From Lentisphaeria bacterium (GTDB lineage Bacteria > Verrucomicrobiota > Lentisphaeria > Victivallales > Victivallaceae), in the NCBI GenBank assembly GCA_022768375.1, contig JALEMG010000039.1, forward strand, positions 1-64,000: DNA of 64,000 nt. The letters run 5' to 3'. The notes under the pieces are model-generated. The model was not told where the DNA came from. It saw only the letters and a list, made by a program, of their open reading frames with translations, and ran no database searches. A program made the translations under genes and the position numbers. Shown here piece after piece: positions 213 to 13,464 of this stretch; the first letter of the stretch is position 1, and each line of letters starts with the position of its first letter.

Positions 213-782
213 TTACCGAATTTTGATACCCTCGGAAGGGTCCTCGATTCGGATCACCTCACGCTGGGTGCATTTTGCAACGGAAATAATATCCTGATCA
301 AACCGGTGTATCGCCCGAGCGATCTCCATGATCGCATCACGCAGTTCCCCGGGACCGGCATCTCCGGGCAACTGCACACAGTAGATCGGACGATCTTCCG
401 AGTCCAAGGCCCAGAATCCCAATTCGCTGTTCCCGTTCAATGCCAGCATCCGCTTCATTTCCGCCTTGAACGGGAGATCGCCGGGCGGGGACAACTCGCC
501 GTAGAGGAAGCGTATCGTCTTGCCGGAAGGGAGTTTGTACACCTTGTCATGGATAATGACCGTTTCCTGATATGTCACCGTGGCGGTGCAGGTCAGGTAA
601 TCCGCCCCTTCGCCGCGATGGAATTTCAAATCCGGAGAATCGGGCAGTTTGGCACCGGTCAAAGGCGCGGATACATCTTCGCCGGGTCGGCATAGCCATC
701 CTCCGGGTTCATCCGAATTTGCCGCGAAGGGCAAGGCGCCGCAGGCGGCACACAGCAACATGATCACCCCATAACGTCTCAT
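213..782 (-). CDS. small secreted protein of unknown function, last gene of the RiPP-like operon
   Basis: This 189-residue protein has a typical signal peptide: a short basic start (MRRYG), a hydrophobic core (VIMLLCAACGALPFAA) and a likely cleavage before SDEPGG. The mature part is mixed alpha/beta in composition with scattered Cys residues, and I recognise no domain. The start is supported by an AAGGAG Shine-Dalgarno in front of the ATG. It begins 26 bases after the ABC exporter on the same strand, so it is probably co-transcribed and may work outside the cytoplasm with the exported product. That role is inferred from position only. Confidence 0.75.
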   Translation of the reverse strand: MRRYGVIMLLCAACGALPFAANSDEPGGWLCRPGEDVSAPLTGAKLPDSPDLKFHRGEGADYLTCTATVTYQETVIIHDKVYKLPSGKTIRFLYGELSPPGDLPFKAEMKRMLALNGNSELGFWALDSEDRPIYCVQLPGDAGPGELRDAIMEIARAIHRFDQDIISVAKCTQREVIRIEDPSEGIKIR

Positions 783-808
783 ATCTTTTTTCTCCTTACG
801 TCAAACAA

Positions 809-2593
809 TCACGTTATTGTGTTTTTTGAACATTGTGCGTACAGAAAAGAAAATTTACTGTCGGATTTTTTGAGCAATTCTTCCGGAGGTCCGTGTTCCG
901 CAACACATCCGCCGGAAAGTACGTAAACCTGCTCGGCGGTTTCCGCAATAAGAAACATATTGTGATCGACAATGACCACCGTCATATTCTGTCCGATTTT
1001 TCTGATGGCCGGGATAATATATCGACTGATCGTCGGACCGTCAACACCGGCGGACGGTTCATCCAACAGCAAGATGGACGGATGGCACGCAAAACATCGC
1101 GCGAGCGCCAATAACTTGCGCTGTCCTCCGGACAGATTATCCGCCCCCAAAGAAATTTCAAATCCCGGGATATCGCCCGGCGCAATTCTGAGAGCGGACG
1201 AAAATCCCGTTATCCGACAGGCTTCAACAATTTCCTCGTCCTTGATCTCATTCCGCTGCAATTGAAAATTCTGCCGGATGCTCCCTTTGATAAAGAGGAG
1301 AAATTGAGAACAAATGACACAATGTTTTCGGAAAGATTCCTCATTCAGTGCAAAAATGTCCCGTCCGCCGATGCGGATGCCGCCGCCCTGCGGCAAATAC
1401 AATCTGCCGATCAATTTCAAAATCGTACTTTTCCCCTCCCCGGCCGGTGCGGCAACGGCATGGATCAATCCGGACCGCATTTCCATATTCAACCGGGACA
1501 AAACGTTTTTTCCGTCGGCGTAGGCGAAGGAAATATCCGTCAAGTCGATGGTAAAATCGTTCTCGGACGGAAACGGGAGACATCCGTCGGGAATCTCGTT
1601 TTTCTGCCGAAAAACATCGTAGACGGCGGTGATATACGGCTCCTGATCTTTTACTCCGTTATACATTTGCTGCAATTTGTTCAAATGATTAAACATCAGC
1701 GGGATCAAAAGGATGGATGCGATCAGATCGCGGATGACGGTTCCCCGAAGGCTGTAGTTGTTCAGAATCGAGATCACAATGGCGAATTGAAACATCAGGA
1801 TCAACAGAGACATGGAATAACGGCTGGCGATATGCAGCAGCATTGCGGTATCCATGCGTCGGGCAAGCATGTGCCGCAGGGAAAACATCTTCCGAATCCG
1901 CTGTCGGACCGCATACATGATCCGCAATTCGACGGGGGCATGAAGGTCGTTCAGTATCTCCTCATTGATCGTCTTGCCGCAATCTCGAACTTTGGTGAAG
2001 GCTTTTGCGATAAGTTTCCCGAAAAACCAAGTTTGAAAAGGCTGTATCGCCATCCCCGCGACCAGCGCAACGACCAGCCACATCGGCAGATGGATATTGC
2101 GCAAGGAGTGAAAGAGAACAATCAGGCCGACGACCATACCGCCCCCGTAAAAAATCGGGAAACAGATCAATTCCAGAAGTTCATACGCGATCCCCGGACT
2201 GGAATTGATGTTGAGCAGAAGTTCCCCGTGGGTATGGCGCTGGTAATACTCCGGGTCCATCGTCAGCAATTTTGCATGGATGAAAGAATACGCATCCCGC
2301 TCCAACCGATCTTTCAGCAGCCGGTCAAATACTTCATTCGTTACGGCAAAAAGAAACTGTATCAGCCCCACGCCGAGAAAAAGGAAGGCGGCTCGTCGGA
2401 ATTGCTGCCAATTATTCAGGGTTTCGGCGAGATTTCCGGTCAAATGCGGCATCAGCATCGCCAGCGTTTCCGCGAAAAAACCCAAAACAAGACTGATCAT
2501 CAACAGTTTTTTCTGATTGCGAAAATAAATCCCGCCGAGAAAATAAAGTTGTTTCAGAACTTGAAAATCATGAGAGAAAATGTTTGACTTCAT
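809..2593 (-). CDS. ABC exporter, fused membrane and ATPase domains
   Basis: This is a half-size type I ABC exporter of about 594 residues, acting in the inner membrane as a presumed homodimer. The N-terminal ~320 residues hold about six membrane segments. The C-terminal ATPase domain shows a Walker A (APAGEGKST), the ABC signature (NLSGGQRKLLALARC) and a Walker B (SILLLDEPSAGVD). There is no N-terminal C39 peptidase domain, so leader removal, if it happens, needs another enzyme. I chose the ATG at 2593 rather than the TTG at 2608 because GGGAGA sits just upstream of the ATG; the gene then overlaps the glycosyltransferase stop by 26 bases. Its place in the operon suggests it exports the modified Cys-rich peptide (inference). 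Lipid or polysaccharide export is the main alternative, given the glycosyltransferase next door. Confidence 0.9.
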   Translation of the reverse strand: MKSNIFSHDFQVLKQLYFLGGIYFRNQKKLLMISLVLGFFAETLAMLMPHLTGNLAETLNNWQQFRRAAFLFLGVGLIQFLFAVTNEVFDRLLKDRLERDAYSFIHAKLLTMDPEYYQRHTHGELLLNINSSPGIAYELLELICFPIFYGGGMVVGLIVLFHSLRNIHLPMWLVVALVAGMAIQPFQTWFFGKLIAKAFTKVRDCGKTINEEILNDLHAPVELRIMYAVRQRIRKMFSLRHMLARRMDTAMLLHIASRYSMSLLILMFQFAIVISILNNYSLRGTVIRDLIASILLIPLMFNHLNKLQQMYNGVKDQEPYITAVYDVFRQKNEIPDGCLPFPSENDFTIDLTDISFAYADGKNVLSRLNMEMRSGLIHAVAAPAGEGKSTILKLIGRLYLPQGGGIRIGGRDIFALNEESFRKHCVICSQFLLFIKGSIRQNFQLQRNEIKDEEIVEACRITGFSSALRIAPGDIPGFEISLGADNLSGGQRKLLALARCFACHPSILLLDEPSAGVDGPTISRYIIPAIRKIGQNMTVVIVDHNMFLIAETAEQVYVLSGGCVAEHGPPEELLKKSDSKFSFLYAQCSKNTIT

Positions 2594-4556
2594 TCCATAT
2601 TCTCCCAAATGTCAAGCCCTTACGGCAATCAAACTGCCCGCATTCCCGGCATGTTTCGTAATCGGCGCAATCGGCATGGACGACCTTGTGAAGTTCCTCC
2701 GCATAGGGTGCCCAAGTCAAATGCGTGTCAGCAAAACAGATCGTGACGCCGGGGCAATGGCAGGCTCGAATCAAGTGCATTACGCCGGTGTCGTTGCCCA
2801 CGGCAAAACCGCTGTGACCGCAGGAAAAAGCAAGTGCGGCAATCGCGGTCAGGGGCCAATTGACCGCGGTTCGGAATCCCGCGTTTTCCGCGACTGAACG
2901 ATACAAGGCTTCTTCCTGCGGACCGAGAATGAAAACCGGTTTCCTTCCGGTGTTTTTCAGTTCGGCGGCAAGCCGAAGATAGTTTTCCGCGCCCCAGTCC
3001 TTGCTTTTATCGCTGGCGCACGGTACGATCAATACCATATCGCGTTCCATCCATTCCCCGACGGCGGAAAAATCGACGCAAAGGGTGTTGACATCCAGAT
3101 TTACGGCACGGCAATGATAGTCGGGCCGCACCAGACGGATCAATGCCGCCCCCTGTTCGGTGACACTGGTATAACGGCGCAGCCGGATATCGTCCCACAT
3201 GGAAAGCGGCAGATATCGGGTAAACACCGCTTTGCAGACGGCCTCCGGGAAATCGATCTGCTCATAGCCGTAAGCCGCGTCATATTGCATTTTTCTCAAC
3301 AAGTCCAACGACGCCGTTTCGTATCGGTAATTGAAAACGGCATCGAATTTTTGTTCCGGCAATTCCGTTTCTTTGCCCTGAAATTCGATAACACGGTCGG
3401 CGAAAGCGTAAGCCTCGAAAAACGGCTTCATCGTTTCCGTGGCAAAGACCGTGATATTGCACGGCGCATAGATTTTCGCGGCCGCCTCCAGCACGTCGAT
3501 GTTGACCAGGGAATCCCCGATCCGGTCCTGCATCAGGAAGGCGACCTCCCGGATCGGGGGCAAAGGCAGGGAAAGTTTTTCAAAAAGTTTTCGCACGACC
3601 CGTTCCACGGAAACATGGCCGATGCAGGTTTTCTGACAACGGCCGCACCGCTCCTCCCCGGCGCAAGGCGGCATGATAAGCGAATGGATCGGCTCCTCGT
3701 AGGGATACCAGTTGAAAGCCGCGCCGCCGGCGATGATATGGATCGTCGGGCGATGAAACGCGGCGGCAAAGTGCATGGGCCCGGAATCGTTGCCGATGAT
3801 AAGTTTCGCATGATCGACCACATACGCCAACTGCGCGAAAGGCAGCGTATCCAGCACGGGGAACCCCGATTGCTCCAATTCCGGCACGAGGCGGCGATCC
3901 TGCGGTCCGATGGCGAACACGGCTTCCATCCCGGCGGCTTGCAAAGTTTTTGCCGCCGCGAGATATTTGGAGATCGGCCAGTATTTCCCGATCCAACTGG
4001 TTCCCGGGAGAAAGAGGACGAATTTCTCCGGCAAAGTTCCCGGATAAGGCTCCCTGCGATAGGTTTCCGGCGTAAGGGTCGGATAGATGAAATTGAAATC
4101 GGGATCGACGAGGCGGATCGGTTCCGCCATCTGTTCGCATACCGTCCGGTATTTTTTGAGCGTCACATTGTCCCAGTATTCCTGAGTGACCCATTTGTCG
4201 AAGTCGGCATCGCACATTTCTTTGGTGATGAGACTGCATTCGGAACCGTACCGCACTTTGCATTTCAGTTTTCTTTGCAGTTCAAGGTAGACCGGGTGAT
4301 AGGCAAGATTGAAAACCGCGTCGAACTCCGTATCCGGCGGCACAAAGTCACTCAAGTCCAGATCGCCGTGGACCCCGCCATTCAGAGTGATCACCTCATC
4401 CACCCACGCGGAGTTTTTGAGCAGTTCCGCGATGAGCGGTATCGCAAAGACGGTGATGCGGCAGGGGGCATAGATTTTTTTCAAATGCTCCAACTGGTTG
4501 ACGCAGCAGATCACGTCTCCCAGAGGAGTCAGGGGAATGTAGGCGATTTCATTCAT
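2568..4556 (-). CDS. tandem family 9 glycosyltransferase (two heptosyltransferase-like modules fused)
   Basis: The 662 residues contain two complete glycosyltransferase family 9 (GT-B, heptosyltransferase-like) modules. Module 1 covers about residues 1-335, with the sugar-nucleotide motif GNDSGPMH near 255-262 and a Cys cluster CGRCQKTC near 304-311. Module 2 covers about 336-662, with GNDTGVMH near 595 and a Cys cluster CADYETCRECGQFDC near the end. Both modules open with a similar GD-containing loop and an IYAPC(R/N)ITVFA stretch, pointing to internal duplication. Known family members add heptose or related sugars to lipopolysaccharide. Here the gene lies between an amidohydrolase and an ABC exporter in a radical SAM operon and overlaps both, so glycosylation of the exported peptide is possible but unproven. 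Confidence 0.88.
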   Translation of the reverse strand: MNEIAYIPLTPLGDVICCVNQLEHLKKIYAPCRITVFAIPLIAELLKNSAWVDEVITLNGGVHGDLDLSDFVPPDTEFDAVFNLAYHPVYLELQRKLKCKVRYGSECSLITKEMCDADFDKWVTQEYWDNVTLKKYRTVCEQMAEPIRLVDPDFNFIYPTLTPETYRREPYPGTLPEKFVLFLPGTSWIGKYWPISKYLAAAKTLQAAGMEAVFAIGPQDRRLVPELEQSGFPVLDTLPFAQLAYVVDHAKLIIGNDSGPMHFAAAFHRPTIHIIAGGAAFNWYPYEEPIHSLIMPPCAGEERCGRCQKTCIGHVSVERVVRKLFEKLSLPLPPIREVAFLMQDRIGDSLVNIDVLEAAAKIYAPCNITVFATETMKPFFEAYAFADRVIEFQGKETELPEQKFDAVFNYRYETASLDLLRKMQYDAAYGYEQIDFPEAVCKAVFTRYLPLSMWDDIRLRRYTSVTEQGAALIRLVRPDYHCRAVNLDVNTLCVDFSAVGEWMERDMVLIVPCASDKSKDWGAENYLRLAAELKNTGRKPVFILGPQEEALYRSVAENAGFRTAVNWPLTAIAALAFSCGHSGFAVGNDTGVMHLIRACHCPGVTICFADTHLTWAPYAEELHKVVHADCADYETCRECGQFDCRKGLTFGRIWNEVKHFLS

Positions 4557-5328
4557 GGTTCAAAAAAACTCCGAAGTTGTCGGACAATATTCTCCGGGAG
4601 GAAAATCCCCGCAGGTTTTTACGCAGATACTCCGTCAGCGATATATCGAGCAACCGCTGCTGCACCGGGATGTCGCTGCCGAATAATATCCGATCTTCCC
4701 GCGCTCCGGCGTCGAGCCATTGTTTTACCGCGTCGGCGGAGCCGTAAGCGCAATCCACATAGACGTTATCGTTTTCATTGACGGCGCGGGGGACATCCGC
4801 GGCGGGTTTTCCGTGGGCGAGGTCGAACTTGATCTCCGGAAACTTCCGGCAATAAGGCAGGTAAGCGGGAATCGGATTGGCGGTCTTGTCGTCTTTTTCC
4901 CCGGTGTGGATCTGGACTCGGAATTTTCTTTCCTTTGCGATGGAAAAGACACGGGAAAGAAGCCGCGGATGTTCCAGCCACGGCGTTTCTCCGCCATGGA
5001 GTTTGAGTCCTTCGTAAAAGTCCGGCAGTTTCGACAAATCGGGGTCAAGTTTCCAATACTCGTCGGTGATCCAGAAAAAGGCGTGGGCGCGCCGCCCGGC
5101 CAGACGCCTCATTTCGCGGGCCTCCGCGTGCATGGCGTCCCCGGAGAAATCCCAGATCGCATTGGTGGAACTGAAGATGAACTCGTTCACGCCCGCCCGG
5201 TTCAGGATGCCGAGCACCCGGCGGGGGGAGTAGTAATACGGCTCCTCGTACCCTTTGCGGGGGAAATAGCCCACGTGGACATGGGCATCATTGACCGGCA
5301 CGGAGGAGCATTTCCCTTTGCTTTTCAT
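4549..5328 (-). CDS. metal-dependent amidohydrolase of the operon
   Basis: This 259-residue protein has the layout of an amidohydrolase-2 type TIM barrel. The first strand carries the metal motif DAHVHVG, the middle has KLHGG and QIHTGE, then DLAHGKP, and the last metal ligand is the Asp in LFGSDIP. These match the His-X-His, Lys/His, His and Asp ligands of the superfamily. The ATG at 5328 has GAGG six bases upstream and lies inside the end of the preceding radical SAM gene (41-base overlap); the stop overlaps the glycosyltransferase start by 8 bases. The substrate cannot be told from sequence. A hydrolytic step on the peptide, such as trimming or deamidation, is a guess from context. Confidence 0.82.
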   Translation of the reverse strand: MKSKGKCSSVPVNDAHVHVGYFPRKGYEEPYYYSPRRVLGILNRAGVNEFIFSSTNAIWDFSGDAMHAEAREMRRLAGRRAHAFFWITDEYWKLDPDLSKLPDFYEGLKLHGGETPWLEHPRLLSRVFSIAKERKFRVQIHTGEKDDKTANPIPAYLPYCRKFPEIKFDLAHGKPAADVPRAVNENDNVYVDCAYGSADAVKQWLDAGAREDRILFGSDIPVQQRLLDISLTEYLRKNLRGFSSRRILSDNFGVFLNHE

Positions 5329-6736
5329 CCACGACCTCGTGATTGACGCGGGCCACCTGACAGAAATGCTCCGCCACCTTGAACATATCTCCGGTCTCGT
5401 TGTAATTGCGGCACATGCAGATGGAACAGTAATCCCGATCGGCGCACTCGGCGCAGCGCGGAAAACTTGCGCCCCGCACCGCCCGGAGTTTCCGTATCTC
5501 CGGCGAATCCAGCCACACCTCCTTCAGGCTCTGCCGACAGCAGTTGCCCAGCGGCATCCCGGTAAAGCCGGGACAGGGGTAGTAATCGCCGTTGGCGTTA
5601 AGACACATGGAGTCGATTCCCGCGCCGCAGATTTTCTGCTTTTTCCACTCGTCCGCGGACGGCATTTCCGCTTTTTTGCCGGGGTTGAAGTATTCGCTCT
5701 CCATGGGCACCGCCTTCAAGATCACATCCCGCAGCAGTTCCCGCGTCTGCGGCAATGTCAGGCGATTGCACAAATTGGAGCAGTCGCCGTCCGACTTGGC
5801 GATCATGATAAAATCCGTCTGCGCGCTCATTTTCAGACTTTCCGCGAATTTGATGACCGCCGGATAGTCATGATAATTGATCTGCATGCAGGGACAGGAT
5901 ATCCGCACCGGGATATCCGCCAGCCGCAGTCGCATGATCGCGTCGGTGGTTTCCCGCCATGAACCGTTTCTCCGGGTGATCTCGTCATGGATCGCCGGGG
6001 TCATGCTGTAAAGCGAGACCTGCACCGTGGCGTCGGCCTCTTTCAGCACCGCGATCTTTTCATCGCTGCACAGCGTGAGGTTGGAAAGCACCGCGACGGT
6101 GCAGTCCCTGCTCCGAATATAGCGTATGATTTTCTCAAAATCCGGGTGCATCATGCACTCGCCGCCGGAGAGGGAGATCGTCATCCCGCCCATTTCCCGG
6201 AATTCGTCCACCACTTCGCAAATCTTTTCAAAGGGCAGAAAGAGCGGATGGTACTCCGGCACATAGCAGTGGCGGCAGCGTTCCGTACAAGCCTGAGTGA
6301 TGTCCATTTGGAGCGAAAAAAGCGTCGGATGTTCCTTGAAGTACTCGCCCAGTACCGATTGCGGCAGGAAGTCCGCCTCTTCCTGAGAAAGCATCTCGGT
6401 ATCTTTCAGCGTCTTGGGGTCGTCGCAGTCGTAGGTGAAGCGAATTTCCTGTGCATCCAACGCCTCCGGGGTTTCCCCCGCAAGGACGATCCGGGAAGCG
6501 ATCAGCGGAGTTAAAAACTCCTCGAAATCGGCGGCGATCGCCTCCGGGTTCGCGTCGGAGTAGACGGCGAATATATTTTTCAGAATGTCCGCTTTTTCCC
6601 GAGGATCCCGGGTGATCCAGCGCATGAAGACCTCCGCCCCGTCGTAAACTTGATCGAAGGCGTTGACTTTGCCGAAAATGTAGGTGAATTCCCCGTATTG
6701 ACGGACGTAACCTTGCCGGGCGAGACGAAGCAGCAT
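5288..6736 (-). CDS. radical SAM/SPASM peptide maturase, copy 1
   Basis: This protein of about 482 residues has three parts. Residues ~1-85 resemble a PqqD-like peptide-binding region. The radical SAM core carries the 4Fe-4S motif CTERCRHCY near residue 150, followed by SLSGGECMMHPDF. The C-terminal SPASM-type region is rich in Cys (ICGAG, YPCPGF, CAECADRDYCSICMC, FCQVA) and would bind auxiliary clusters. Such enzymes make thioether or C-C crosslinks in ribosomal peptides. I chose the ATG at 6736 because GGAG precedes it and it lies one base after the stop of copy 2; an ATG at 6748 lacks a ribosome site. It is clearly paralogous to the next gene (shared HPDF, NLTLC, SLYSM, DCSN and NETGDM stretches). 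Confidence 0.92.
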   Translation of the reverse strand: MLLRLARQGYVRQYGEFTYIFGKVNAFDQVYDGAEVFMRWITRDPREKADILKNIFAVYSDANPEAIAADFEEFLTPLIASRIVLAGETPEALDAQEIRFTYDCDDPKTLKDTEMLSQEEADFLPQSVLGEYFKEHPTLFSLQMDITQACTERCRHCYVPEYHPLFLPFEKICEVVDEFREMGGMTISLSGGECMMHPDFEKIIRYIRSRDCTVAVLSNLTLCSDEKIAVLKEADATVQVSLYSMTPAIHDEITRRNGSWRETTDAIMRLRLADIPVRISCPCMQINYHDYPAVIKFAESLKMSAQTDFIMIAKSDGDCSNLCNRLTLPQTRELLRDVILKAVPMESEYFNPGKKAEMPSADEWKKQKICGAGIDSMCLNANGDYYPCPGFTGMPLGNCCRQSLKEVWLDSPEIRKLRAVRGASFPRCAECADRDYCSICMCRNYNETGDMFKVAEHFCQVARVNHEVVDEKQREMLLRAGQ

Positions 6737-6737
6737 G

Positions 6738-8078
6738 TCAGACTCCATATATTTTGTGTTGTATCGCGGCGGCGATGCACCGCTTTGGGGCGTGTTTCAA
6801 CATATCCCCGGTCTCGTTGAAGTTGCGGGTGGGGCAGACCTTGCACCACGGGCGGTTGCCGCAAGCGGCGCACGTTCCGAAATCCCGGTTTTTCAGCGCC
6901 CGCAGGGCGTTGAGTTTCTCCCCGTACCAGACCTCCGAAAAAGTGTGCGTCGCGGCATTGCCCAGTACGATCCCGTGACAGCCGTCGCAGGGATAGTAAT
7001 TTCCCTCGGCATTGATGTCGATCCTCGCCTTGCCGATGTCGCACACTTTTGCTTCCGGTGCGTAAGCGGACGGAGCGGAAGGTATCTGATGAAAGAGTTC
7101 GCGATGCCGGGTCAGCACCGCCTCGAATTCCGCGGGCGAAAGCGCACACGCCTGATTGGAACAGTCGTGATCGGTCTGTCCGAAAATATCCAGATCGGGA
7201 ATGAGGTGCATATGGTGTTCCCGGGCAAAATCCAGCAATCCGGGCAAACTGTCGCGATTGGGTTTCATGACCGGACAGGCGAGACGGATATGCACTCCGG
7301 CGCGTTCCAGCGTCAGTATCGCGGACATGGTCCTGCCCCACGAACCGGGAAACCGGGTGATGCCGTCGTGAATGGCGGGGTCCATGCTGTACAGCGAAAC
7401 ATTGACGAACTGCGGATCAATCTCCTGAAGCAGCCGCACGATTTTCTCATCGCAGAGCGTCAGATTGGAAAGAATGAGCATATTGAGGCGCAGACTTTTC
7501 GCATAGCGCAGAATTTCCGCGAAATCGGGGTGCATCATGCACTCGCCGCCGGAAAAATGGATCGTAAGGCCGCCCGCATCCCGAAATTCATGCAAAACCT
7601 TTTTCACCGTTTCCAGCGGCAGGAAGTGCGGCGTGTAATCGGGGATGTAACAATGGATGCACCGCTCGGTACAGCCGTTGGTGAGGTCGATGTGCAGTTC
7701 TGTCGGCAGATGGTGTTTCTCGAAAAACGATCCCAGCGGCGTCCAACTGTCATCTTTTTTTTCGCCGTCGGCATCGAAGGAGGCGGGACCTCCCTCCGAA
7801 ACGGCGGCATCGGCGGCCGGTCCCGCGTCACTTTCGCAGAAACTCTCCGCGACGAGCATGGCCAGAAACTCGCGGACATCCGCCGCCACTTCGGCGGGCG
7901 CCGTCTCGAATGTCGCGGCGACTTTGCGGATGATCTCCTCCTCGCTTTGCGGTTCGTAGGTCAACGCATCGAGAAACGGTTTCGCGTCCTGCAGGATGAC
8001 GCACGCCGAAGTGCGCCGGTTCCACAACAGACTCTCCTCTCCGGCATGCCGGACGAAGGTGTCTTTTCGATAGTTCAT
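6738..8078 (-). CDS. radical SAM/SPASM peptide maturase, copy 2
   Basis: About 446 residues. The N-terminus (~1-85) again looks like a PqqD-type recognition region, followed by a low-complexity Ala/Asp/Gly linker to ~112. The radical SAM motif is CTERCIHCY at about residues 136-144, with HFSGGECMMHPDF downstream. The SPASM part has CDIGKARID, YPCDGCHG, CAACGNRPWCKVC and a final Cys after NETGDMLK. The ATG at 8078 forms an ATGA overlap with the zinc-ribbon gene, which decides the start; an open frame reaches further upstream but without a ribosome site. The Cys pattern of the SPASM end differs from copy 1 (KVCPTRNF versus SICMCRNY), so the two enzymes may act on different residues of one substrate. 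Confidence 0.92.
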   Translation of the reverse strand: MNYRKDTFVRHAGEESLLWNRRTSACVILQDAKPFLDALTYEPQSEEEIIRKVAATFETAPAEVAADVREFLAMLVAESFCESDAGPAADAAVSEGGPASFDADGEKKDDSWTPLGSFFEKHHLPTELHIDLTNGCTERCIHCYIPDYTPHFLPLETVKKVLHEFRDAGGLTIHFSGGECMMHPDFAEILRYAKSLRLNMLILSNLTLCDEKIVRLLQEIDPQFVNVSLYSMDPAIHDGITRFPGSWGRTMSAILTLERAGVHIRLACPVMKPNRDSLPGLLDFAREHHMHLIPDLDIFGQTDHDCSNQACALSPAEFEAVLTRHRELFHQIPSAPSAYAPEAKVCDIGKARIDINAEGNYYPCDGCHGIVLGNAATHTFSEVWYGEKLNALRALKNRDFGTCAACGNRPWCKVCPTRNFNETGDMLKHAPKRCIAAAIQHKIYGV

Positions 8079-8350
8079 TTTCTTCTGAAAAAAGACTCGA
8101 TTTTGTATATGAACGATCGCCATCTCACTGATTTGCCGCAGCGGTGACAATACGAATCCTCGGGATCGGCATGAAACTTGCATCGCGGACATTCGATGTA
8201 ATTATTGCAGAGGTTTATCAACGTATTCCCATTTTCGTCGACATAGACCGTTTTCCCGGAATAAGGTTGGCAATATCGCGAAAAATCGTGCCCGCAATGC
8301 TTGCAGGGACTGGCGGATGCGGCACGTCCGCATTTAGGGCAATAACTCAT
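8075..8350 (-). CDS. small double zinc-ribbon protein
   Basis: A 91-residue protein with four CXXC knuckles: CPKC and CKHC near the N-terminus, CPRC and CHRC in the second half. This is the pattern of two zinc ribbons separated by a middle segment with NGNTLINLCNN. The C-terminus is basic and aromatic (VRWRSFIYKIESFFRRK), which could bind nucleic acid or membrane. The ATG at 8350 is preceded by AAGGA at good spacing and overlaps the preceding gene by 17 bases; the stop overlaps the radical SAM start as ATGA. No enzyme motif is visible. It may be an adaptor or scaffold for the maturation complex (inference from tight coupling). Confidence 0.8.
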   Translation of the reverse strand: MSYCPKCGRAASASPCKHCGHDFSRYCQPYSGKTVYVDENGNTLINLCNNYIECPRCKFHADPEDSYCHRCGKSVRWRSFIYKIESFFRRK

Positions 8351-8600
8351 AATCAAATTCCTTGATTTCCTCAAGACAGTGCTGCAGTGCGGAATCAATA
8401 ACCTCCTGATCCTGCGGATTGAGTATCACCGCCTCGTTTCTCAACCGCACAGCATAATCTTTCAGAGCCGAAAGCAAAGTCAACTGGTCGGATTGATCAG
8501 GCGAAATATCGCTTTGATCCACGCACGGCTTCGTTATCGACACCTGATCGATTTGCGATCTTATCCAATCCAGCATTTCCCGAAAAGATTTTTTCTGCAT
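8334..8600 (-). CDS. small acidic protein of unknown function in the RiPP-like operon
   Basis: An 88-residue, predicted mostly helical protein starting MQKKSFREMLDWIRSQ and ending EEIKEFDYELLP. It is rich in Asp, Gln and Leu, has two Cys, no signal peptide and no recognised domain. It is the first gene after the precursor peptide and the intervening hairpin, and its 3' end overlaps the zinc-ribbon gene. Small genes in this position of peptide clusters are often immunity, chaperone or recognition proteins; nothing in the sequence decides among these. An AGG sits upstream of the ATG, a weaker ribosome site than that of the precursor. Confidence 0.7.
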   Translation of the reverse strand: MQKKSFREMLDWIRSQIDQVSITKPCVDQSDISPDQSDQLTLLSALKDYAVRLRNEAVILNPQDQEVIDSALQHCLEEIKEFDYELLP

Positions 8601-8627
8601 GACAACAAACCTGCTTTTTTTGAAAAT

Positions 8628-8654
8628 CCTCCCGCCGGACCAACCGGCGGGAGG
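8628..8654 (-). terminator. hairpin between precursor and maturation genes, probable leaky terminator
   Basis: A perfect 11-bp inverted repeat (CCTCCCGCCGG / CCGGCGGGAGG) with a 5-base loop lies 11 bases after the precursor stop codon. In the minus-strand transcript it is followed by A and four U. The short U-tract suggests partial termination. This would yield more precursor mRNA than enzyme mRNA, or protect the 3' end of the short transcript. Confidence 0.7.
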
Positions 8655-8665
8655 TCATCGGTCGC

Positions 8666-8803
8666 TTAATCCAACTTTCCACACATGCAACTGATGTTGA
8701 GGTTGGAGCAATAATGTCTCTCCGGCGTGCGCGTCGGGCAGCCGGCGACGTAGGACTTCTTCGCGGAGGATTTCGCGACCATCTGGGGTTTCTTGTAAGC
8801 CAT
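8666..8803 (-). CDS. Cys-rich 45-residue peptide, putative RiPP precursor
   Basis: This small gene encodes 45 residues. The N-terminal half (MAYKKPQMVAKSSAKKSYVA) is Lys/Ser/Ala rich with no Cys, as expected of a leader. The C-terminal part starts at GCP and carries four Cys at positions 22, 32, 39 and 41, with the end ISCMCGKLD. The ribosome site GGAAAGGAG is the strongest in the operon. It is directly upstream of two radical SAM/SPASM proteins with PqqD-like N-termini, an ABC exporter and a hydrolase. Thioether (sactipeptide or ranthipeptide-like) crosslinks from the Cys residues are the most likely modification, inferred from enzyme class. I cannot assign a named precursor family. Confidence 0.8.
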   Translation of the reverse strand: MAYKKPQMVAKSSAKKSYVAGCPTRTPERHYCSNLNISCMCGKLD

Positions 8804-8929
8804 GACAGGCTCCTTTCCGAGGGATCTCCCTCATTTCGGCCGCGGCGACCATCGCCGCAGGCCTGATTGATATTCCGCCGGGACGACCGCGTCCCGGAAT
8901 CCGGACCTCGACCCGCGTCGGAAATCCCC

Positions 8930-9118
8930 TCATGCAATGCAAAAGGCGTATTTCCGACACATGTACAAGCCGGCAACGCCAATCGCCGTGATGATCCATG
9001 TGACAAAAATACGCCCGCAACGGGAACGCACTCCGTCAGACAGCAGGATCATCAGTCTTTGAAATTTGGCGTTTTCGCTTGTACTGTTACCCTGTCTGAA
9101 GATACGAATTGTCTTCAA
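8930..9118 (-). CDS. doubtful 62-codon frame in the operon leader, possible single-span membrane peptide
   Basis: An open frame of 62 codons lies between the operon promoter and the precursor gene. Its second half looks like one membrane segment (FVTWIITAIGVAGLYM) followed by a basic, Cys-containing tail. The only long start is TTG with a GAGG too close to it, and the internal ATG at 9052 has no ribosome site, so translation is uncertain. If real it could be a small membrane accessory or immunity peptide. If not, this is a ~380-base untranslated leader. Confidence 0.3.
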   Translation of the reverse strand: MKTIRIFRQGNSTSENAKFQRLMILLSDGVRSRCGRIFVTWIITAIGVAGLYMCRKYAFCIA

Positions 9119-9192
9119 ACCTCAGTTTGTCATGCTACATCAAATTTTCCGTTGTCACCTCCATAATTTGATTGGCGGGATACACCGGACTT

Positions 9193-9221
9193 AATTTAGC
9201 ATACGGCGCCGGATTTGTCAA
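9193..9221 (-). promoter_or_regulatory. promoter of the RiPP-like operon
   Basis: On the minus strand, TTGACA (9216-9221) and TAAATT (9193-9198) are separated by exactly 17 bases. The -35 box is a perfect match, while the -10 matches four of six bases. Transcription would start near 9186, about 380 bases before the precursor ATG, leaving a long leader that contains a GGAGGTGACA stretch at 9153-9162 without a convincing start codon. Confidence 0.75.
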
Positions 9222-9464
9222 CTTCTCCCCTCGGAAAATCACGGGATCGGCGTTGACCGGTCAAACAGCCCGGGACCATCCGGTCACGGATGATCTCTAC
9301 TGATTGAACGGAGATTTCAGGATTTTCTTGCAGCAAAAAACGATTTTTTTGCGGATTTTTTTCGGGAAAGACTCCGCGCGACAGGGCGAGGCGGCGCGTT
9401 TGCCGCCTTCCCGCTTCCGCCTTCGCCGAGGCTACGGCGGACAAGCAACCCCGCGTTTTCTTTG

Positions 9465-9496
9465 GTTACTTTCTTTTGCTGTCAAAAGAAAGTAAC
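9465..9496. repeat. 14-bp perfect inverted repeat (intergenic hairpin)
   Basis: GTTACTTTCTTTTG at 9465-9478 pairs perfectly with 9483-9496 across a CTGT loop. It lies in the 390-base gap between the kinase gene and the RiPP operon promoter. It has no strong GC core and no flanking T-run, so it resembles a REP-type intergenic repeat more than a simple terminator. Confidence 0.75.
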
Positions 9497-10926: not shown

Positions 10927-11485
10927 ATTCGTTACAGCGCCCGACGATCTCCCGGAGCATCCGGAGACAGCGGCTTTTGGCCAGATAGAGTTGCGCTTTG
11001 CTCACGCCCAGCACAGCGGACACTTCCGCGGCTTTGCGGTGTTGCAGCGCGTACATCTCGAACGCCTGATAGGTCGAGGCGTCCACCCGGCGGCGCAGTT
11101 CCTCCAGCGCATCCTCCAGCACCATGTGCCGCCAGCGGTCCATGAACTCCCCGTCCTCCGCGGGGTCGATCGCCTCCTCCGCCGGGAGCACCGCTTCCGC
11201 CCGGCGGTTTTTCCGGATGAAATCCACCGCCTGAGAACGGATCACCGTGGCGAAATAGGTGCGGAACTTCACTTCGTTTTCCCGGTAGACAAACCGCTTG
11301 GCCGAATTGAAAAACTTCAGCATCACATTCTGCACCAGATCGTCGCATTCGTCGGCGTTGAAGTGGCAAAGAGTCCCCGCATACCGGATCACCGGAGCGT
11401 AGCGGCGGTAAAATTCCGTCCACGAGACCTCGTCGCCGGAGCGGACTTTTTCCAGCAGACTTTTACGGGTGGAGGGGTAGTTCAT
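10898..11485 (-). CDS. ECF-like sigma-70 family RNA polymerase sigma factor
   Basis: A 195-residue sigma factor of the small ECF-like type. Region 2 is seen in the first ~100 residues (WTEFYRRYAPVIRYAG, ADECDDLVQNVMLKFF, FRTYFATVIRSQAVDFIRKNRR). Region 4 is in the second half, ending in a helix-turn-helix (RKAAEVSAVLGVSKAQLYLAKSRCLRML). No anti-sigma gene with a recognisable domain is next to it; instead the downstream gene is a Ser/Thr kinase, overlapping by 29 bases. The start overlaps the stop of the DNA polymerase gene by 4 bases, so these genes form one transcription unit. Confidence 0.9.
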   Translation of the reverse strand: MNYPSTRKSLLEKVRSGDEVSWTEFYRRYAPVIRYAGTLCHFNADECDDLVQNVMLKFFNSAKRFVYRENEVKFRTYFATVIRSQAVDFIRKNRRAEAVLPAEEAIDPAEDGEFMDRWRHMVLEDALEELRRRVDASTYQAFEMYALQHRKAAEVSAVLGVSKAQLYLAKSRCLRMLREIVGRCNEFDGELHLEL

Positions 11486-13464
11486 GACGCGCCTCCGAAC
11501 ATCGCCGCCAGCGCGTCCAGTTTGGCCAGATAGTAGGCGATGTTCTCGTCCCTTTCGCCGGGGACGGCGGAATCCAGCAGTTTGGAATTGCCCGTCACCG
11601 GCACTTTGGCTTTGGTCCCGGTCACATAGAACCGCACTTTATCCCCGGCCCGGAATTTCCGCCCGGACGCCAGCGCCAGTTCGTATGCGGCGGATCGGCG
11701 GCCGGAACCGTCGGCCAGTTTGCGGGCGTAGTTCTCCGGCGAATCGCTCAGAACCTCGCTTTTGGCGAAATCCTCCAGCGGCAAAGCGCGATTTTCGATA
11801 TCTTCCCGGAACTTCGCGGCGATCCCCGGCAGTTCCGCTCCCCTGCCCCGCAGCAGCGCCGTCACCGCCGCCAGAATAAACCGCCGCTGAAACGGTTCCA
11901 GCGCCCGCGACTTCAGCGCCGCGCCGGTCAGGGAAACACTGCCGTCGGCGTGCAGCAGCGCATAATTTTTCGCCTTGTAGGAGTACATCGCCGGATAATC
12001 CGCGTCGAATTCCAGATCGATCCCCTCCGGCAGAACCGCCGTCACCGCCCGGTCGAAATCCGCCGCGGCGTGTTCCGGGAGTTGGAAATAGATCCCGTCG
12101 GTGTCCATCTCGATGACCGTCGCGCCCAATTCCGTCAGCCGGGAAGTCAGTTTGCCCAGCAGTTCCCGGCCCGCGGCGGTGACCTGCTCCGCCAGCGCGA
12201 AATCGTTGAAGCATCCCTGCCCGAACCCGAGATAACCGTAAAAGGAGTTGATCAGCACCTTGAAGGAACTCTGCAATGCTTCCGCCTGCTGTCTGGCCGG
12301 CCCCTCCGGCAGGGTGCGGGCCCGGTCCTTGGCCTCCAGACGGAAGCGGCGCAGTTCGGCCAGCAGCCGCAGAAAAATCCCCAGTTCGTCCTTTTCCGGG
12401 GAACGGTCGAACATCAACAGCAGCGACGGGTACAGCGAACGGACGTCGCAGTGGCGCACCTGATCAAAGACCCCGTGCCGTTCCGCGCCGGTGAGCGCGC
12501 CGGTGTAACTCCGGGCGTTTTCCGGGAACGGGATCGCATGCCCCGCCCGCAAATACTCCGCGATGAAAAGCGAATCCAGCGCACTGCCGGAACCCCGGAC
12601 GATGCAGTCCTGATACCCCAGCGGCAACGCCCGCGTCCGGTAGAACCACGCGGGCGACAGCAAATCGGACAATTCGCCGATCCGTTCCGGCGCCGTGGCG
12701 CCGGCAAGCCGGAAATACGTTCGCAGCGTTTCCGGTTCGTAATCTTCCAAATCACGATGGACCGCGTCGTAGAGCAGGACCAGATGCAGCACGTCCACGA
12801 CGTGACGCCCGGAGAGGGAATAACGGTTGTATCCGATCTGCTTGTCTCCGGCGGAGAACCGGCCGGCACGCATGGCAAATCCCCCGCCGTTCCTCCCGCA
12901 GTCAAAGGTGAAACGGCAGGCTTTGGCGCGGCCGAGCAGCAGCGGCAGATCGACGCGGCAGCAGTTGAATCCCTCCAGCACATCGGGATCGAATTCCCGG
13001 ATGCGGGCGTCGAACTCCTCCAGAATCCGCCGCTCGTTCCCGGTAAATTCCACCGTCCCGCCGCCGGAATCGGTCGCACGGACGGCGGCGAGGCGCCCCT
13101 CCGCGTCCGCGACGGCTTGAAACTGCATCCGCCGCAGTTCGGGGAACTCCACGCCGGAAAAGAGCCGGAGCCCGGTGTCGCTCAACGCCTGCTGCAGCAG
13201 ATCGCGGAAGACCATCGCGTCGCCCCGCTTTTTCAACTCCGGCAGCGCGCGGTCATAAGCCGCCATATCCGGGAACACCGCCTTGACGGTGAATTGTCCG
13301 CGTCCCGTCAGCGACACGACCTCGCACCCCGCCGGGACCTCCGCGTCGGCGGTCAGCAGCACATAAGGCCGGAATGCCGCGTCCACGGTGCGAAATCCCC
13401 TGCCCTCCGGCAGAAACAGCCGCAGTCCGAAATCCCCCGTCTCCGCCGCCGTGACCCGGTCCAT
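11482..13464 (-). CDS. family B DNA polymerase with degenerate exonuclease I motif
   Basis: A 660-residue family B polymerase, shorter than E. coli Pol II (about 780). The polymerase site is intact: motif A CDVRSLYPS (~339-347), motif B KVLINSFYG (~402-410) and motif C DTDG (454-457). In the exonuclease domain, motif II is recognisable (GFNCCRVDLP, ~165-174), and a GRHVVDVLHL stretch follows near 219. At the expected exo I position the usual FDIE is replaced by FQAV (~115-118), so both catalytic acids appear missing and proofreading may be lost. The start ATG at 13464 has a GGGGGCGG stretch upstream. It lies between PurO and the sigma-kinase pair. A role in translesion or repair synthesis is inferred. 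Confidence 0.9.
   Translation of the reverse strand: MDRVTAAETGDFGLRLFLPEGRGFRTVDAAFRPYVLLTADAEVPAGCEVVSLTGRGQFTVKAVFPDMAAYDRALPELKKRGDAMVFRDLLQQALSDTGLRLFSGVEFPELRRMQFQAVADAEGRLAAVRATDSGGGTVEFTGNERRILEEFDARIREFDPDVLEGFNCCRVDLPLLLGRAKACRFTFDCGRNGGGFAMRAGRFSAGDKQIGYNRYSLSGRHVVDVLHLVLLYDAVHRDLEDYEPETLRTYFRLAGATAPERIGELSDLLSPAWFYRTRALPLGYQDCIVRGSGSALDSLFIAEYLRAGHAIPFPENARSYTGALTGAERHGVFDQVRHCDVRSLYPSLLLMFDRSPEKDELGIFLRLLAELRRFRLEAKDRARTLPEGPARQQAEALQSSFKVLINSFYGYLGFGQGCFNDFALAEQVTAAGRELLGKLTSRLTELGATVIEMDTDGIYFQLPEHAAADFDRAVTAVLPEGIDLEFDADYPAMYSYKAKNYALLHADGSVSLTGAALKSRALEPFQRRFILAAVTALLRGRGAELPGIAAKFREDIENRALPLEDFAKSEVLSDSPENYARKLADGSGRRSAAYELALASGRKFRAGDKVRFYVTGTKAKVPVTGNSKLLDSAVPGERDENIAYYLAKLDALAAMFGGAS

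Follow-up and report, generated by a model that had tools for sequence, protein, structure and literature searches.

A conserved precursor peptide, two radical SAM/SPASM maturases and an amidohydrolase form a probable RiPP operon in a Lentisphaeria bacterium

The window analyzed here, a 64,000-nucleotide stretch of a Lentisphaeria gut bacterium (bases 1–64000 of contig C24 in a 2.25-Mb genome, window base 1 being contig base 1), carries on its minus strand a gene cluster that we consider likely to be the biosynthetic operon of an undescribed family of ribosomally synthesized and post-translationally modified peptides (RiPPs). The conserved pathway comprises a short cysteine-containing precursor, two paralogous radical S-adenosylmethionine (SAM)/SPASM maturases and an Amidohydro_2 enzyme. 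The family is genuine and conserved, and apparently undescribed. An earlier note on this DNA had proposed that two radical SAM/SPASM enzymes serve a RiPP pathway here, a proposal that the conserved pairing of precursor and maturases supports.

The precursor gene (8666..8803, minus strand, as are all cluster features given below) encodes 45 residues, with a leader of approximately residues 1–23, a core of residues 24–45 and cysteines at positions 22, 32, 39 and 41; its homologues adjoin maturase genes. The maturase rSAM1 (6738..8078) combines PqqD-like, radical SAM and SPASM domains and is the faster-evolving paralogue, as assigned by Pfam and a tree, while rSAM2 (5288..6748) joins an N-terminus resembling a RiPP recognition element (RRE) to radical SAM and SPASM domains. 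The third enzyme, AHY (4549..5328), is assigned as a metal-dependent amidohydrolase of the Amidohydro_2 fold from its Pfam match, metal ligands and structure model.

Related loci were collected from both the maturase and the precursor. With rSAM2 as query, and counting the window's genome each time, 6 of 60 relatives (E up to 1e-30) and 7 of 78 family genomes (E up to 1e-40) gave matches, and a maturase-led scan of named genomes gave 12 contigs, from which the Clostridia match L026 was then excluded, having 24% identity and no similar precursor among its small open reading frames (ORFs). Removal of duplicates left 18 maturase-led loci carrying close relatives of rSAM2 (the window locus, L015–L025 and L027–L032). 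A precursor-profile search matched 8 of 137 order genomes (own included), 13 of 387 genomes of a phylum sample, 12 of 161 in the order of genome G279 and 4 of 28 in the order of G219, these sets overlapping one another and the maturase-led list; L085 proved to be L015 again, with equal length and mirrored coordinates. This search added 14 loci (L049, L057–L060, L082–L084 and L086–L091). Most named relatives are Kiritimatiellae or Verrucomicrobia assemblies, several of them labelled as goat, sheep or yak gut.

The precursor is present in 16 of the 18 maturase-led loci, the window's own included, and the other two (L024 and L025) are cut by a contig end at that place; a maturase is present in 13 of the 14 precursor-led loci, L088 being cut right after the precursor. 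The check suggested in the earlier note, a search for maturase relatives lacking a Cys-rich peptide, was run on these close relatives and did not refute the reading; the peptide was also found in all four of the plasmids examined (see below). Chromosomal precursors total 35, and those left out of profile building reach E-values of 1.2e-22 (whole-genome searches) and 2.7e-24 (fetched loci), so that the precursor matches lie far above chance. A chance ORF was rejected as an explanation because the sequence is conserved together with its position. No extra precursor copies were found in the window's own genome. With respect to maturase content, 22 loci have rSAM1 and rSAM2 side by side, at least partly, and three further loci of this two-maturase type show one complete maturase (L025, which is cut, L019 and L090). 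Six loci have a single maturase (L049, L058–L060, L087 and L091), to which the truncated L088 is added. Locus L090 also holds an N-terminal fragment of rSAM2 at 273–515.

The precursors share a strongly conserved leader with the consensus MAYKKPxxVAKSxAKxSYVAGCP, followed by a C-terminal core that is near random apart from anchored cysteines. The first 19 precursors all have M1, P6, A10, K15, A20, C22 and C39. Cys22 is present in 30 of 30 precursors, and L091, left out of this count for its two extra N-terminal residues, has Cys24; the same 30 peptides contain two to six cysteines each, and a cysteine stands exactly seven residues from the C-terminus in 17 of the first 20. A short precursor with a conserved leader and a variable core adjoining a maturase, the arrangement by which radical SAM RiPPs are recognized, is therefore what these loci contain.

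Leader and core differ sharply in their divergence. Across 190 pairs of 20 precursors, leader identity is 0.73 in nucleotides and 0.72 in amino acids. The cores reach 0.57 and 0.32, where cores with shuffled codons give 0.56 and 0.27. The ratio of non-synonymous to synonymous differences (pN/pS; 70 equal-length pairs) is 0.29 for the leader and 0.76 for the core, values that are indicative only because the cores are near saturation. Genome G080, of the same family as the window's and carrying loci L016 and L022, has three precursors whose leaders are 99–100% identical in nucleotides with zero synonymous change and whose cores are 62–76% identical with 0.27–0.58 synonymous differences per site. 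Tandem precursor pairs in L021, L028, L082 and L083 show the same division (leader 0.84–0.93, core 0.47–0.58). Since point mutation with selection does not easily yield such a contrast, core exchange, or conversion of the leader, is its likely cause, judging from these sequences.

A hairpin of 5–6 bp lies directly ahead of the precursor ribosome-binding site AGAAAGGAGCC. In the window it reads TGAGGG-AGAT-CCCTCG (8818..8833), and the position recurs in other loci with stems that change on both sides: within nearly the same flanks, L017 has GGAAC/GTTCC, L020 GAGTC/GACTC and L023 GAGGC/GCCTC, both arms changing together. The covariation is drawn from an explicit stem list and a control count. 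The hairpin precedes 15 of 20 first-set and 8 of 11 later-found precursors, against a background of 17 among 93 control starts from the first loci (for the two sets, Fisher p 2e-6 and 4e-4, values that are optimistic because the rows are related); among the single-maturase chromosomal loci it is present in one of six (L058). The 5' region of the precursor has no Rfam match, and a role in translational control or mRNA stability would be a guess.

The maturases are uniform in their catalytic motifs. A CX3CX2C motif and a seven-cysteine SPASM motif occur in 40 of 40 maturase sequences, and Pfam finds both Radical_SAM and SPASM in 38 of 38; both window enzymes have them. PqqD is matched in window rSAM1 (E 2.5e-5). 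The earlier note had described two paralogues with PqqD-like N-termini; the radical SAM and SPASM domains hold for both, the PqqD match for rSAM1 alone. The model of rSAM2 has the peptide maturases SuiB, SkfB, ChlB and 5wgg as structural neighbors, the last of which we take to be CteB, a ranthipeptide-type maturase, and its N-terminus aligns with SuiB from residue 6. The two paralogues share approximately 36% identity and form separate groups in the tree; rSAM1 is the less conserved in all 120 pairs of 16 loci, and the more conserved rSAM2 is probably the ancestral enzyme.

No NCBIfam maturase equivalog reaches its cut-off. Against named sactipeptide models, rSAM2 scores 77.8 bits for StsB (cut-off 625), 72.3 for AlbA (850) and 52.7 for SkfB (300). 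The PqqE and mycofactocin models score far below their cut-offs. The resemblance to viperins is confined to the radical SAM core: the PADLOC pVip model matches residues 147–294 of 486, and the NCBIfam viperin model (cut-off 180) gives 57.6 bits for the plasmid relative L061 and 52.3 for L060 and is not among the best 25 NCBIfam matches listed for the window.

AHY matches Amidohydro_2 (PF04909) with 32.8 bits, above the gathering threshold of 26.4, and its metal ligands HxH, H, H and D are invariant in 20 of 20 sequences. Its structure model has a mean confidence score (pLDDT) of 94.4, and TruffO is a fold neighbor at rank 45. The enzyme is encoded in 22 of the 25 loci of two-maturase type, the contigs of the other three ending in or soon after a maturase, and in four of the six single-maturase loci. 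The earlier note had listed the amidohydrolase without stress; it is present as stated, and it is in fact the constant third partner.

Downstream of AHY, a 662-residue protein (2568..4556) with two Glyco_transf_9 stretches constitutes a tandem fused, heptosyltransferase-like GT9 glycosyltransferase. Ten of 31 loci (the window, L016, L018, L019, L024, L027–L030 and L087) have a GT9 homologue close to the core genes, several of the negative loci being short contigs. The tandem fusion occurs in five loci, and all five ORFs with two GT9 matches in seven genomes sit in this cluster. The tandem GT9 emphasized in the earlier note is thus a real but optional part of the pathway, and from its co-occurrence GT9 may perhaps glycosylate the peptide in some loci. 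The adjacent permease-ATPase (809..2593; ABC_tran), for which Pfam detects no peptidase domain, is an ATP-binding cassette (ABC) exporter whose homologues (E 1e-20 or better) occur in 3 of 35 other loci (L027, L028 and L029, all of the same genus), making four loci with the window; the exporter claimed earlier is present here, but rarer than GT9.

Three further proteins of the unit appear to be specific to this locus: o88 (8334..8600), of 88 residues and without a family in Pfam or PADLOC (best NCBIfam E 0.099, which is noise); the 91-residue zinc-ribbon protein ZnR (8075..8350), whose double zinc ribbon (DZR, E 1.2e-5) scores 25.8 bits, below the cut-off of 27.3; and secP (213..782), of 189 residues, with an apparent signal peptide recognized by eye and no Pfam or NCBIfam match. 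The precursor likewise has no Pfam match. Because none of o88, ZnR and secP has a homologue (E 1e-3) among the 35 other loci, they are probably not parts of the pathway; the reading of the entire unit as a single pathway was narrowed on this ground, and the zinc-ribbon and secreted proteins, counted as members in the earlier note, would drop out. All the genes that it named are present on the minus strand from 8803 to 213, with the starts of rSAM1 (8078) and the ABC gene (2593) corrected. They are packed as it described: every junction from o88 through the ABC gene overlaps (−17, −4, −11, −41, −8 and −26 nt), with gaps of 65 nt between precursor and o88 and 26 nt between the ABC gene and secP, at which the view of the locus ends since the contig starts at window base 1. 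A sigma-70-like promoter, TTGACA-17-TAAATT (9193..9221), approximately 390 nt ahead of the precursor, is a possible start of the unit by consensus match; it is one of eight such sites in the region, where 6.2 are expected by chance.

A smaller form of the system exists on conjugative plasmids of Enterobacteriaceae and Vibrionaceae, the latter represented by the fish bacterium Photobacterium. Proteins similar to rSAM2 (tblastn; 97–98% of the query, 31% identity) are encoded on seven plasmid records, five from E. coli, one from Salmonella and one from Photobacterium. The four examined (L061–L064: CP099011, NZ_CP030177, NZ_CP150463 and NZ_LT985265) are conjugative and carry a two-gene cassette of precursor and radical SAM enzyme, in which a 38-residue peptide (MSYSKPTVLAKSSTYMAQCRPNSKPSGRPCNPPGPSGR), absent from the PLSDB gene table, precedes the maturase gene in every case. 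This peptide is identical in E. coli and Photobacterium while the DNA differs. A recombinase gene is annotated upstream in three of the four, and in the fourth, from Salmonella, the same 3' end of the recombinase frame is readable. Weaker plasmid matches (65–70% of the query) come from Thiodictyon, Macrococcoides, Paenibacillus and Indioceanicola. In 5,426 complete E. coli RefSeq genomes, a megablast search found no place covering 80% of the plasmid cassette. A phage origin was rejected: a search of 50,697 phage records with rSAM2 (E 1e-15) found nothing, and the precursor profile has no match in viral contigs.

Several known systems resemble the family in part. The best NCBIfam match of rSAM2 is the GeoRSP (geopeptide) model TIGR04303, with 104.6 bits (rSAM1, 90.1), far below its cut-off of 400, and no geopeptide model is among the precursor matches. 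The pathway also differs from CteB/PapB ranthipeptides, since rSAM2 scores 61.2 bits against the PapB model (cut-off 340) and the window precursor is not of the six-cysteine type of SCIFF precursors. Prochlorosins share the combination of conserved leaders and hypervariable cores, with several precursors per maturase, but are made by a lanthipeptide synthetase rather than a radical SAM enzyme. Bottromycin biosynthesis differs in its use of YcaO chemistry. According to the excerpt of its description, bottromycin tailoring or release involves a metal-dependent amidohydrolase, PurAH/BotAH, in a RiPP locus, with which AHY has the superfamily alone in common, and its precursor differs from ours in carrying a follower peptide (PMC10885120). 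The excerpt on ruminococcin C sactipeptides (PMC8188230) describes a parallel: a gut bacterium, a cysteine-containing precursor with an N-terminal leader, and two enzymes with RRE (RRE-like in ours), radical SAM and SPASM domains, CX3CX2C and seven SPASM cysteines. RumMC1 and RumMC2 are, however, described there as highly homologous, unlike rSAM1 and rSAM2 with their 36% identity and separate groups; our pathway further adds an amidohydrolase and GT9, and its thioether is putative. Limited searches of the open-licence literature (titles and abstract starts among the matches listed) showed no description of the family and no match to the leader strings, and next to nothing on Kiritimatiellae or Lentisphaerae as sources of radical SAM RiPPs; the family may be described elsewhere, such as in radical SAM RiPP atlases.

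From the gene content we infer the chemical steps, their order and the biological role as follows. The conserved 23-residue leader would be bound by the N-terminal RRE-like (PqqD-like) domains of both maturases. The enzymes rSAM2 and rSAM1 would then install radical crosslinks, most likely thioethers, using Cys22 at the leader/core border and the cysteines of the hypervariable core, so that the product is probably thioether-crosslinked. The second step, constant across loci, would fall to the amidohydrolase; trimming or release of the product by hydrolysis is the most likely reaction, and for an enzyme of this fold decarboxylation is the alternative. Where it is present, GT9 (two fused modules here) would add sugars, and the ABC exporter of the window may export the product. 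A narrow-spectrum antagonistic peptide would be the best fit to the hypervariable core.

A number of observations weigh against the RiPP operon as proposed. All evidence is at the level of genes and their predicted products. Among the known models of RiPP precursors in Pfam and NCBIfam none fits the precursor, and all scores stay within noise (the strongest, SSH RaS-RiPP, has E 0.025 and concerns one of 10 precursors). Pfam detects PqqD in just 16 of 38 maturases, and not in window rSAM2, and anSME, presumably not a RiPP maturase, is a structural neighbor within one Z unit of the peptide maturases. In L019 and L090, which their coordinates mark as two contigs of a single genome (G557), the two maturases are apart, one per contig and each accompanied by a precursor. 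Within the 14 kb retrieved for L049 there is no amidohydrolase, and the plasmid version has neither amidohydrolase nor GT9. Finally, few loci encode a relative of the exporter, and a dedicated protease was not found.

Two other readings of the locus involve the slot between the precursor and the next core gene, where ORF inspection (no gene finder) shows extra genes in 10 of 17 loci of two-maturase type. These genes are on the same strand, closely packed and different between loci: o88 and ZnR in the window; 8xMP membrane proteins in L016 (812-1531) and, by clustering, L027 (14210-15397); an FRG-domain (PDC-S15) protein in L020 (1220-2305); small proteins in L022, L029 and L030; and genes without a family in L015 (3177-5317), L019 (there between precursor and amidohydrolase), L022, L028 (5425-6444), L029 and L030, the coordinates given being those of slot genes between precursor and rSAM1. 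The product may be a bacteriocin and the slot genes the immunity or self-protection matched to each core, a reading that stops short of likely but is a serious possibility, and to which their locus specificity and the two G080 clusters L016 and L022, differing in both cores and slot genes, lend weight. It is countered by the slots that are empty in 7 of the 17 (L017, L018, L021, L023, L031, L032 and L057) and by large products unlike immunity proteins, such as the 583-residue protein of L015, which matches nothing in Pfam, NCBIfam or PADLOC and was read as SIR2-like by eye only. The modified peptide and slot genes could alternatively act against phages or plasmids in conflict between elements. 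The FRG/PDC-S15 and JAB-domain proteins in the slot and flank of L020 belong to conflict families, the distribution is patchy (8 of 137 order genomes, as above) and a minimal version travels on conjugative plasmids; yet PADLOC finds no family for the remaining slot genes put to it, among them those of the window, the pVip models match the maturases in their generic radical SAM part, the phage records hold no relative at E 1e-15, and the JAB-domain protein could be an unrelated neighbor. We regard this defense role as unlikely.

Much the same low weight falls on a cofactor-like or metal-binding small product, comparable to PQQ or mycofactocin and finished by the amidohydrolase and GT9. The scarcity of exporter homologues and the identical plasmid peptide of E. 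coli and Photobacterium would suit such a product, but the chromosomal cores are hypervariable, variation that a shared cofactor would not tolerate, and the PqqE and mycofactocin models fit poorly, as noted above. Least probable, and to our mind very improbable, is that the peptide serves as acceptor or primer for lipopolysaccharide (LPS) or capsule sugars added by GT9, a surface-glycan role that the earlier note had raised. GT9 is a heptosyltransferase family, and a UDP-sugar dehydrogenase and a GT4 are encoded downstream in L017, but 21 of 31 loci (several of them short contigs) have no homologue of the window GT9 nearby and the core sequences are not conserved; beyond GT9 family membership nothing supports this role.

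Several features adjoin the cluster upstream. At window 11485-9589 a gene for a Ser/Thr protein kinase follows one for a sigma-70 region 2 protein, and a gene for a 660-residue family B DNA polymerase (11482-13464) lies upstream of this pair; a protein kinase also occurs near the locus in L031. The sequence AAAAGAAAGTAACCAAAGAAAA at window 9456-9477 has 52 copies in the genome (26 per strand, at most two mismatches; none for a reversed-pattern control), often clustered approximately 145–155 bp apart, and looks like an intergenic repeat.

Returning to the proposed RiPP operon, we tentatively suggest a fuller picture, which is possible but less likely than the operon itself: a RiPP class of its own, new and marked out by the YKKPxxVAKS...AGC leader, in which a near-identical leader, ribosome-binding site and hairpin are kept while cores are exchanged or diversified within a genome, two diverged radical SAM enzymes and an amidohydrolase resembling ACMSD or isoaspartyl dipeptidase modify the peptide, a tandem GT9 glycosylates it, the slot carries changing immunity or effector genes, and a two-gene form travels on plasmids. 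The leader motif offers a handle for mining radical SAM RiPPs of Kiritimatiellae and Lentisphaerae, and the lower conservation of rSAM1 makes the family a natural test of which maturase reads the variable core. The system pairs radical SAM maturases with an amidohydrolase as their constant partner and, here, with a tandem glycosyltransferase from a family usually tied to LPS, and the small size of the two-gene plasmid form should make the core chemistry tractable.

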